Source: Schistocephalus solidus
Taxonomy: Eukaryota > Platyhelminthes > Cestoda > Diphyllobothriidea > Diphyllobothriidae
DNA: 64,000 nucleotides
Direction of reading: 5' to 3'
NCBI GenBank assembly: GCA_017591395.1
Contig: WEDG01004086.1
Location: 59,876 to 123,875, forward strand
Position 1 is the first letter of the stretch, and every line of letters begins with the position of its first letter. The notes under the pieces are model-generated. The model made no database searches and had not been told where the DNA came from. It worked only from the letters and a program-made list of their open reading frames with translations. Made by a program: the position numbers and the translations under genes. Positions 18,830-28,685 of this stretch are shown here, piece after piece.

Positions 18830-20760
18830 CAGGACTGGTTTGACGAATATGACGCCGAAATCAGCAAATTACTCACGGAGAAGAATGGACTACACAAAGC
18901 CTACATGGACATTCGGACTGACGCCATCAAAACAGCCTTCTTCAGATACCGGTGCCTTATACAGCAACGGCCGCGGTAGATGCAGGGATGCCTGGATGAT
19001 CCGAAGGGTTGAGGAAATCCAGGGGTATGCGGACCGCAATGAAATGAAAAACTTTTTCAAAGCCATCAAGGCCATCTACGGCCCTTGTATCAAGGGGTCC
19101 GCACCGCTGCTCAGCTCTGACAGCACAACACTGCTGACAGAGAAATCGCAAATTCTGAAGCGCTGGGCCGAGCACTTCAAAAATGTCCTTAATTGCTCAT
19201 CAGCCATCTCCGATGCTGCCATTGACCGGCTCCCTCAAGTGGACACGAACAATGACCTGGATCTGCCGCATTCCCTACCAGAAACCATCCGGGCCGTGCA
19301 GCAGATTTCCAGCGGTAAAGCACCGGGATCCGACGCAATCCCACCGGAAGTCTACAAGCACGGTGGGCCCCGGCTGATGGCAGAACTCACAACACTCTTC
19401 CAGGAGATGTGGCACCAAAGACAAGTTCCTCAGGATTTCAAAGACGCGACTATCGTCCATCTCTACAAGTGGAAGGGGAACCGGCAACTCTGTGATACTC
19501 ACAGAGGCATCTCGTTGCTCAACATCGCCGGGAAGATCTTCGCCCGTATCCTTCTCAATCGTCTTAACGGTCACCTAGAGAAGGGCCTGCTCCCAGAAAG
19601 CCAATGTGGCTTCCGCCGACACCGCGGAACAACCGATATGATCTTTGCCGCCCACCAGCTACAAGAGAAGTGTCAGGAGATGCGAACTCACCTATACACT
19701 ACCTTCGTGGATCTAACGAAAGCCTTTGACACGGTGAATCGTGACGGACTGTGGAAAGTCATGCAGAAATTTCGGCTGTCCTGAGCCGTTCACGCACATG
19801 GTGCGTCAGCTTCATGACGGGATGACGGCGCGCGTCACTGACAACGGGACGGTATCCGAAATATTCGCAGTGACGAACGGAGTGAAGCAGGGCTGCGTAC
19901 TGGCCCCCACCCTCTTCAGTCTCATGTTCTCGGCTATGCTGATGGACGCCTACCGTGATGAGCAGCCTGGTATCCGCATCGCCTACAGAACTGACGGGCA
20001 CCTTCTCAACAGTCGGCGTATGCAGGCTCCAACGCGCGTGTCTACGACTACAGTCCATGACTTGCTCTTCGCGGACGACTGCGCCCTTAACACCGTGACG
20101 GAGGAGGACATGCAAAGGAGCATGGACCTCTTCGCCGAAGGCTGCGCCGATTTCGGATTAACAATCAGTACAGCCAAAACGGTTGTCATGCACCAGCCGC
20201 CACCCAGCGCGGAATACAATGCTCCTCGAATCAATGTCAACGGTGCTCAACTCAAAAACGTGGAGACCTTCGCTTATCTAGGAAGCACGATGTCGCGCAA
20301 CACGAGAATCGATGACGAGGTTGCCCAACGGATCTCCAAAGCTAGTCAGGCCTTCGGTCGGCTGCAGGCCTCCGTGTGAAATCGCCACGGTATTCACCTG
20401 AACACCAAACTGAAGATGTACAACGCCGTCGTCTTGACGACACTCCTTTACGGAGCGGAAACCTGGACCGTCTACTCGAACCAAGCCAGGAAGCTAAAAC
20501 ACTTTTTCATCTCAGCTGCCTCCGCAGAATACTGAAGCTGAGATGGCAAGACAGGATCCCGGACACGGAAGTCCTGAAGCGGACTGGAATCATCAGCATC
20601 CATGCCATGCTGAGGCAAGTACAACTGCGATGGAGCGGCCACCTGGTAAGAATGGACGACGAGTGACTACCCAAACGACTTTTTCTACGGAGATGTCGCT
20701 ACGGGTTCTCGCCGGCCTGGAGGTCAAAACGACGCTACAAGGACACTTTTGAAGAAATTG
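18830..20760 (+). pseudogene. Reverse transcriptase of LINE copy B
   Basis: Frame 1 of the protein runs to 19784 and holds ISSGKAPGSDAIPPEVYKHG, DFKDATIVHLYK, RGISLLNIAGKIFARIL, SQCGFRRHRGTTDMIF and motif A VDLTKAFDTVN (near 19705-19740). A one-base insertion near 19773 moves the frame. The next part (19741-20379) holds motif B NGVKQGCVLAPTLFSLMF and motif C LLFADDCALN (near 20060-20090). TGA replaces a Trp codon at 20377, extra T's near 20505 shift the frame again, and TGA replaces an Arg codon at 20664. The catalytic Asp pair is intact, so decay is recent. It copies element RNA at a nicked target. Confidence 0.85.
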
Positions 20761-20833
20761 CTGAAGCAATCCGCAAATCAACTCGGCGACCTGGGAGGAC
20801 CTCGCCCAGGGTAGACTGGCATGGAGAAGATCA

Positions 20834-21757
20834 GTGAAGACTGGTTCAGCAATCTATGAGGCCAACCGAATCACCGCCGCCAAGGCCAAAAGAGAGGCAC
20901 GAAAGTCACCAGCGCCCCGGACCAACACCGCCAATGCCCAGGCCCTGCCAACATGCCCGCGTTGTCAGCGCATCTTCCGCGCGAGAATCGGCCTGGTTGG
21001 ACATCTTCGGACGCAATGCACCAACAATCAGACAATTTCAATTTCTACGTCAAATTCTGCCAACCCTCCTTCTGACTCCCCCACCCTCACCCTCCCGGCA
21101 TCAATTCCATTACTCACACCATCATAGAGGCCACATCCATTTACTCATCGCCTGTTACCCCCACGATCGCAACCACCACCGCCTTCACTACCACCACCAC
21201 CACCATCAGCAATGGGGAATCTCTCCTAAGCTGTACTCAATGCAACCGCACATTCACCTCACGCATCGGCCTGGTCAGTCAATTGCGAATACATCGTACA
21301 GAGACCGGTGAGCCAGTGCCTGGAACACCATCACACAGCAGAGATCGTCGCCTCCACTGCCCTCACTGTACTCGCGCATTCACTCATCGCATGGGCCTAT
21401 TCGGTCACATGCGCATCCATGACAGCGGAATTCAACACAATGCCGACAACACCGATACACCATTCACACCCTCCGCTCCTGCCATTCTTAGCGCCCCTGC
21501 CACCCCCACTACCATGAATGACATCGCCCCAGCCTCTACCGATTTCTCCTGCCCACACTGCGCCCGCAACTTCAACTCACGCAGTGGCCTGGCCGGTCAC
21601 CTGTGAATCCATCGCACGGAGGCTGGTGAACCAGTGCCTGGGGCTCCGACATACAGTCGACGCGCCCGCCTTCACTGCCCTCACTGCTCCCGCACATTTA
21701 CACACCGCATGGGCCTATTAGGACACATGCGCCTCACTGACAACCTCCGGTAAACCA
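20834..21757 (+). pseudogene. Zinc-finger array of LINE copy B
   Basis: Five finger units on a Pro/Thr/Ser-rich background. Unit 1, CPRC-x12-H ending RTQC, is at about 20950-21015. Unit 2 (about 21235-21297) has its first His changed to Gln. Unit 3 (about 21357-21420) is intact as CPHC...HMRIH. Unit 4 (about 21549-21612) is CPHC but ends at a stop before the last His. Unit 5 (about 21678-21740) is CPHC with the last His replaced. Frames differ between units because of indels. Together with copy A it defines the ancestral layout RT, linker, five C2H2 fingers. Confidence 0.75.
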
Positions 21758-22389
21758 CCGGAGGCTCAGCTACATCAGTGCACACTACCTACACCAATAC
21801 ATCGACTACGCCCTCACAATCACCATTTACCAGAGTATATCACGGTTTCCTAGAAACCGTGGCTGGGAAGTCTGCCAATCTGACGCTTCCACCAGACCAC
21901 GCCGTTGGCTCAGTGTATGTGCTGTGTGTGTCGAGTGGCTGACCAGTGGACTGGGAGTCAGTGTAAATAAAGGAATACTAATTCCTTTCCCGGCACAAAA
22001 CCACTAATTTATAAAGCCTAATTTTTTGTACCAAGGGCCTTATCTCAGTTGCTTTGCGTATGGATGTAAGGAAATTACTCTGCTTGCGGTTATTTGGTAA
22101 ACAAACTTGAGGCAAGAAGATCCTGAAGTAAAATGCCACGAACTTTAATCAACGCTCTCCGCTACCTCCTGAAGTAACGGTCGGCAATGTGGCTCCAAAG
22201 AATATTTACCTTCAAGAAATATTTATATATGTCCACTGATGTTAACCATTAATTCCCCTTCACGGCCGCCGCTAGTGCTATCCCTAGGATTGGAATTCAG
22301 GATACAGTTGGGAGCTAGGTTTAGAGGTTACTGTTAGGGCTAGAGTCAATAGATAGCGTTAGAAGTTATGAGTAGGCATTCGATGGACG

Positions 22390-28037: not shown

Positions 28038-28430
28038 AAGTTGAGTTCTTTGGGAACAAAATAACTTAATTGTGTAAATTTTCGAATCTGGTGCCCCAGT
28101 TCGTCGTCAGACAAATGGGAGATGTACAGAAAACAGTTAACCTTAAATAATGCCTAACACAAGATTCTATGGTTGGCTAAAGTTTGAGCCAATAGACATC
28201 CGGAGTTTGAAGTTATCTGATCGATAGTGGCTGTTTTCGCCTCCACTTGACCTTGAGAAATTTGTAATTGGCATCTAAATCGATATGCCTGTTAATGCAT
28301 GCCTCGTCTGAGTGCATTGCCTCCAGGAATTCGCGGCCTCTTCTTGTTGGGCAGGCGCCAACGATGTGGGTATCCTCCCATCCAAATAGGTGTCCTGTGT
28401 CCAGTGTGTGCATGGCTACCTGCAGTGGGT
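28033..28430 (-). pseudogene. Penelope-like element 3' end with GIY-YIG C-terminus (copy 3)
   Basis: Minus-strand translation reads QVAMHTLDTGHLFGWEDTHI, then FLEAMHSDEACINRHIDLDA and YKFLKVKW. This fits the second half of the Penelope GIY-YIG domain (TGH...E..N RHIDL). The 3' UTR resembles copy 2. The 5' half is replaced by the SINE that starts near 28408-28435, so the SINE apparently inserted into this element. Confidence 0.65.
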
Positions 28431-28685
28431 AGAGCGTTGGACTTCTGCCCAACAAGGTCGCGAGTTCGAGACTCGGGCGCTGCAGCGCCTGGGTTTGGGT
28501 ATGGCTGGCTGATGACGGCTAATAAGCCAGAAATGGCCATTCCAGTCTCCCTTGTCTTTTGTCGGTCATGTTATTCTGCCTATATACTTAGCTGCCCTAC
28601 GGCTGCTGGCGGGGCTTGAGAGTTAGCCCCAAGGCACAACGGGACAAGTGAGTCCTGTAACCGATCGGTTAGCGCCCCATTACCA
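28408..28685 (+). repeat. tRNA-derived SINE, most complete copy
   Basis: A box TGGCTACCTGCAGTGGGTAGAGC (written in parts: TGGCTACC, AGTGG, GTAGAGC), B box GAGTTCGAGACTC near 28460, spacer 'gggtttgggtatgg', the hammerhead-like core 28503-28547, 'cttgtcttttgtcggt', then a tail with 'tagccccaaggcacaacgg' and 'cgatcggttagcgcc', ending in (TA)n. About thirteen related pieces occur in the window. Pol III transcription is inferred from the boxes. Confidence 0.75.
28503..28547 (+). ncRNA. Hammerhead-ribozyme-like motif inside the SINE
   Basis: Order and spacing fit a type I hammerhead. Stem I GGCTGG (28503-28508) pairs with CCAGTC (28542-28547), six pairs including one G-U. Core CTGATGA is 28509-28515. 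Stem II GGCT/AGCC (28517-28520 with 28525-28528) has loop AATA but a C-A mismatch next to the core. GAAA is 28530-28533. Stem III is the self-complementary ATGGCCAT (28533-28540), with no room for a loop, so it could form only between two molecules. The nucleotide before stem I is T (28541), giving an AUU cleavage triplet. Hammerheads in SINE-like elements are known from schistosomes (Sm-alpha). Activity is untested; the mismatch and AUU triplet argue for weak or lost activity. Confidence 0.5.

Follow-up and report, generated by a model that had tools for sequence, protein, structure and literature searches.

Type I hammerhead ribozymes have been described in SINE-like retroposons of Schistosoma, the SMalpha and Sjalpha elements (PMC2770079; PMC8490949). 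In S. mansoni, hammerhead candidates are also reported from the satellite W-elements, and three of the five that were tested cleaved (PMC8490949). According to two further sources, metazoan tandem repeats carry type I hammerheads, some of which are dimer-dependent (PMC7761336; PMC7229834), and platyhelminths are mentioned among the animals concerned (PMC7229834). Within the hammerhead itself, the 10.1-11.1 pair is described as the most conserved aside from A15.1-U16.1, and a natural variant with U10.1-U11.1 is reported to exist, U-U being said to outperform any other mispair (PMC3088659).

The element analyzed here, a SINE of the tapeworm Schistocephalus solidus located in a 64,000-nucleotide stretch of DNA (the window), resembles these systems in several respects and, by analogy, may work like the hammerheads of flatworm and animal tandem repeats. 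With SMalpha and Sjalpha, as described, it shares a SINE-like repeat in a flatworm, a tRNA-related head, a very high copy number and the order of the boxes (CTGATGA, then GAAA), a likeness of architecture. With the S. mansoni W-elements, which carry minimal hammerheads (PMC8490949), it has in common that a hammerhead-type motif occurs in flatworm satellite repeats. Those W-element candidates that were predicted to be active had been selected because their stems were unbroken and their core boxes without fault, whereas stem II of the tapeworm motif opens with a mismatch. Like the metazoan non-LTR retrozymes, the tapeworm family has tandem repeats, roughly 300 bp long, with a hammerhead-type motif whose weak helix III may depend on dimers; where 150-450 bp is given for retrozyme repeats, the tapeworm arrays consist of 308-309-bp units with the candidate hammerhead. 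In contrast to the retrozymes, which are characterized as GC-poor (under 45-50%), the tapeworm unit combines a tRNA head with 56% GC, above the limit of 50%. Stem II lacks its customary first pair, as it does in the U10.1-U11.1 hammerheads (PMC3088659), but the mispair is U-U in that case and a family-wide C-A in the tapeworm element. Taken strictly, the element falls outside the type I hammerheads by its 10.1-11.1 pair and model score, and outside the retrozymes by its GC content.

The hammerhead-like motif occupies positions 28503-28547 of the window, and all of its parts are on the forward strand. Stem I is formed by GGCTGG (28503-28508) and CCAGTC (28542-28547), giving six pairs, one of them G-U. 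Next to its 5' strand lies the core box CTGATGA (C3 to A9; 28509-28515), in which the core columns are conserved and N7 (28513) is not, followed by stem II (CGGCTAATAAGCCA; 28516-28529). The latter begins with the C10.1-A11.1 mismatch beside the core, continues with the four pairs of GGCT/AGCC and closes on the loop AATA; with 14 bases, the region is as long as in the schistosome hammerhead. After the second core box, the conserved GAAA (G12 to A15.1; 28530-28533), stem III consists of the self-complementary ATGGCCAT (28533-28540), and as this palindrome has no loop, its pairing would join two copies. U16.1 and the cleavage base H17, a U (28540-28541), belong to an AUU triplet and mismatch at 0.032 each in diverged dispersed copies; from the layout of the motif, the predicted cut is at 28541/28542. 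The CUGANGA and GAAA boxes and the UH site of a type I hammerhead are thus all present in the correct layout; by sequence, three stems could form around them, one of six pairs, one of four after a mismatch and one loopless. Inspection of the sequence confirmed the boxes and stems at the places assigned to them in an earlier note on this DNA, as well as the weak points listed there (the C-A mismatch, the AUU triplet and the loopless stem III). Absent from that note is a possible outer part of stem I beyond a UAU/U internal loop, where GGG (28497-28499) can pair with CCC (28549-28551), both on the forward strand; these outer pairs are retained in 76/86 to 83/90 dispersed copies. A lenient descriptor (the boxes CTGANGA and GAAA, no constraint on the first pair of stem II, a minimum of two pairs in stem III and of five in stem I) has a single match on both strands of the window, which is the motif itself; of 2158 dinucleotide-shuffled versions of the window, 7 contain any match to it.

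The motif lies within a SINE copy, the body of which spans 28422-28685 on the forward strand and aligns with relatives in the window, about ten in number and diverged, and, from unit position 50 on, with the array units. A (TA)n tract that runs to about 28703 follows this copy, which has a GC content of 0.56 vs 0.43 for the window; compared with the array unit, the copy is either shorter or divergent in its 5' part. Upstream of the motif is a tRNA-like head with what we take, from the Pol III motifs, to be a degenerate box A region (28413-28429, forward strand; TGGCGCAGTGGG in the array unit) and a box B-like AGTTCGAGACT (28463-28473, forward strand). The box B columns rank among the best kept of the element, with zero mismatch at 28464 and 28465 and 0.024 at 28466 and 28469 in diverged dispersed copies. 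The head of another copy fits the Rfam tRNA model at threshold (35.1 bits), and five other tRNA matches are below the cut-off. Together with the well-kept box B columns, this bears out the tRNA-derived SINE proposed earlier. A reverse transcriptase ORF is also present in the window (18849-19784), its nearest named proteins being from Sparganum proliferum, Schistocephalus solidus and Spirometra erinaceieuropaei, and part of the SINE element, when translated, recurs in a 76-aa ORF of S. solidus. Adjacent to reverse transcriptase ORFs, the window also has a direct repeat of 1.6 kb (1-1579 and 20389-21961), its two copies sharing 93% identity.

In the 603.7-Mb assembly (8019 contigs), the pattern CTGATGAN{10,18}GAAATGGCCATTCCAG has 2739 + 2771 = 5,510 matches, against 0 + 0 for the reversed control, and in a first, array-rich set of copies the identical 57-nt segment occurs in 98/196. 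The hammerhead-like motif is therefore the common state of the family. The element exists both as dispersed copies and as long tandem arrays of approximately 309-bp units, among them arrays of 26.0 units of 309 bp (98% matches), 25.9 units of 308 bp (88%) and 14.6 units of 309 bp (84%); further arrays are also present. The earlier note does not mention arrays; the dimers that it had deemed necessary are thus available at the level of DNA. GC content is 0.56 in the array unit and 0.518 to 0.568 in the arrays. A run of four T, the Pol III stop signal, occurs once in the window SINE copy and is absent from the array unit examined, so that Pol III should be able to transcribe through such an array without terminating. 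Core intactness differs between arrays: 24/26, 20/23 and 11/14 monomers have an intact core in the arrays L086-L088, in which broken-core monomers have been amplified as well, vs 26/26, 20/20, 27/27 and 16/16 in the young, near-identical arrays L032-L035, where youth alone could explain it. A (TA)n tract terminates many of the insertions, several of which are permuted and exceed one unit in length, as would be expected if multimeric or circular RNA had been reverse transcribed. Of the listed insertion ends, not one comes as close as 3 nt to the predicted cut.

The best evidence for a hammerhead is the conservation of its core columns in dispersed, diverged copies. For this sample, 358 of 404 profile hits were retained, with pattern-selected copies and three overlapping loci removed; long arrays, copies with a divergence outside 5-35% and those with at most 60 aligned columns were also dropped, leaving 76 copies. 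In these, the 12 core columns mismatch in 35/712 cells (0.049), compared to 321/2580 (0.124) for the remaining columns of the 57-nt segment and 2324/9594 for the element columns outside it, so the core is better kept than its surroundings. At N7, a free core position in hammerheads, mismatch is 11/58 (0.19). Base-matched draws of columns were as low as the core in 0/20,000 cases within the segment and in 1/20,000 over the element, and the true register of the core was the best of 211 slides. The effect was reproduced with the copies' own consensus and, at one row per locus, in 29 loci (core 0.044 vs 0.105). The core columns rank 5 to 93 of 268, and some columns outside the motif are equally invariant. 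One such place is TT at 28495-28496, just 5' of GGG, as invariant in old copies as the core, for which we know of no role in a hammerhead.

At position 10.1-11.1 a Watson-Crick pair, nearly always G-C, is expected in a type I hammerhead. Unlike the schistosome ribozyme, which is active in vitro and has G-C there, the tapeworm element has C-A, in 88/103 dispersed copies and in all main subfamilies seen; U-A is present in 8/103, and G-C in 0/352 rows of all kinds. Paired substitutions, by which the earlier note had suggested to check the stems, gave little. Among 131 distinct segments from 330 rows, a set that still includes pattern-selected copies and for that reason was not used for conservation, no excess of stem pairing over independent columns was found save at the pair closing the loop of stem II (119 paired vs 114.0 expected), and there the excess is due to three rows. 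A slight excess was observed in a second set for stem II, 97 fourteen-base inserts from 100 places of the 5,510 (the first listed, not a random draw), which collapsed to 45 variants besides the commonest: 144/180 paired vs 138.9 (shuffle p 0.008). Over half of it comes from four C-G to T-A changes, a swap found at pair 28519-28526 in 4/45 variants with stem II preserved. These four may reflect common ancestry, and as evidence for a hammerhead the excess is weak.

Folding does not favor the hammerhead either. The best fold is a long hairpin, more stable by 10 kcal/mol than the hammerhead fold, with probabilities of at most 0.009 for the hammerhead pairs; as a control, a schistosome ribozyme sequence folds as a hammerhead. 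The rival hairpin extends over the segment at -24.4 kcal/mol and supersedes a shorter alternative, CTGGCT/AGCCAG, considered before. Double changes keep a pair in 8/11 cases for this hairpin vs 3/10 for the hammerhead pairs, counts that decide nothing because double transitions keep a pair anyway. Pairing in the hairpin does not predict the conservation of columns (p 0.57): mismatch in core vs non-core columns is 0.062 vs 0.118 where the hairpin pairs them and 0.037 vs 0.210 where it does not. The core columns are thus kept irrespective of hairpin pairing.

Comparison with Rfam, also proposed in the earlier note, yielded no copy that scored as a hammerhead among those examined. There was no hammerhead match in the window or in 12 loci, and in a genome search with RF00163, which scored 73 of 91,055 candidates, none exceeded the cut-off; the best reached 24.4 bits, and four places matched weakly. 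In permissive mode (E up to 1), 7/9 viral loci with the canonical pattern were matched, but at the gathering threshold 0/6 were, and the negative at that threshold on the window alone therefore says little. Many weak Rfam matches to microRNAs were disregarded as they are located on (TA)n tracts. The canonical pattern CTGATGAGNCN{4,12}GNCGAAA has 18 matches vs 5 for its reversed form. Searches for related DNA gave 0 matches in GTDB genomes and 0 in plasmids, and a single phage match among viral contigs was read as chance. On a viral contig (L128), a Twister-P5 ribozyme match of 48.4 bits (1199-1253) lies on the same contig stretch as a hammerhead-like match. In the literature, searches by sequence pieces gave no flatworm link in titles or the beginnings of abstracts, and among the titles listed for hammerheads in combination with SINEs, flatworms, tapeworms or retrozymes, none concerned a tapeworm hammerhead.

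Judging from the sequence, the element would probably be a SMalpha-like SINE and satellite with a selected, non-canonical type I hammerhead, weak or dimer-dependent; that this hammerhead is working, or was until recently, has in our estimate a probability of about 0.5. In favor are the correct layout of the core, its rarity by chance, the conservation of its columns and the arrays, which supply motifs in tandem. Against it are the lack of an Rfam score, the C-A pair, the near absence of covariation, the disfavored fold, the amplification of broken-core monomers, the lack of a listed insertion end by the cut and the equally invariant columns outside the motif. The original proposal of a hammerhead in a SINE therefore stands as regards the SINE, the conserved core and the multimers in DNA, and not as regards the Rfam score and the paired substitutions, so that two of the three outcomes named in the note as refuting have occurred, at least in part. 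Any activity is probably weak, given C-A at 10.1-11.1, and would take place between two copies, given that stem III is palindromic and loopless. Pol III might transcribe from the tRNA-like head and read through the arrays, upon which neighboring motifs in one multimeric transcript could pair via the palindromic stem III into a double hammerhead. Cleavage after AUU would then release unit-length RNA, which might be ligated into circles or retrotransposed. We are more doubtful, and put forward only tentatively, that a large SINE and satellite family depends on such a double hammerhead, lacking the canonical 10.1-11.1 pair and acting via stem III in tandem transcripts.

The main rival is a fossil ribozyme. 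In this case the SINE would derive from an active SMalpha-like ancestor and have lost its activity along with the 10.1-11.1 pair, and the core conservation in old copies would be inherited from formerly active masters. The C-A pair in all main subfamilies seen, with no G-C in the 352 rows, agrees with such a loss, as do the missing Rfam score, the disfavored hammerhead fold and the broken-core monomers amplified in arrays. However, no G-C ancestor was found, and the arrays L032-L035 retain the core in all monomers, though their youth alone could account for this; on balance we consider a fossil unlikely, if a serious contender. Somewhat less probable still is a different function for the segment, as a conserved core domain of the SINE, for instance a hairpin that the partner reverse transcriptase recognizes, with the likeness to a hammerhead being secondary. 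The long hairpin that spans the segment, the higher count of double changes that keep a pair in it and the invariant TT at 28495-28496 would suit such a domain, but conservation follows membership of the hammerhead core and not hairpin pairing, and the C-G to T-A swaps at 28519-28526 keep stem II. Finally, a reader scans for many motifs, and the lenient descriptor does match in some shuffled windows, so a chance resemblance picked out among many possible motifs has to be considered; the core-specific conservation is independent of the shuffle count, and we regard this explanation as highly improbable.

An active non-canonical hammerhead would add tapeworms to flukes as carriers of hammerhead SINEs and serve as a natural experiment on how much distortion the pair beside the catalytic core tolerates. 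It would also mean that a family with thousands of copies escapes the covariance models now in use, and, since the Rfam search missed this tapeworm family, flatworms may hide others of the kind. If it is inactive, the copies are a fossil record of how such SINEs lose their ribozyme.

Some arrays and insertions have additional structure. L086 and L087 (G000:C87:62000-82000) form a long array of a divergent subfamily, with units 88% alike, in which monomer types, some of them with a broken hammerhead core, recur in a regular order like that of a higher-order repeat. In the array L088 (G000:C96:109000-113500), the repeating block is about 1227 bp long and made up of four 309-bp units that differ from one another, as in a higher-order satellite. 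On three different contigs, insertions (L005, L007 and L049) of 398 bases each cross the unit junction; all begin at unit position 221 and have their ends near (TA)n, pointing either to a start site favored in multimeric RNA or to descent from one master.
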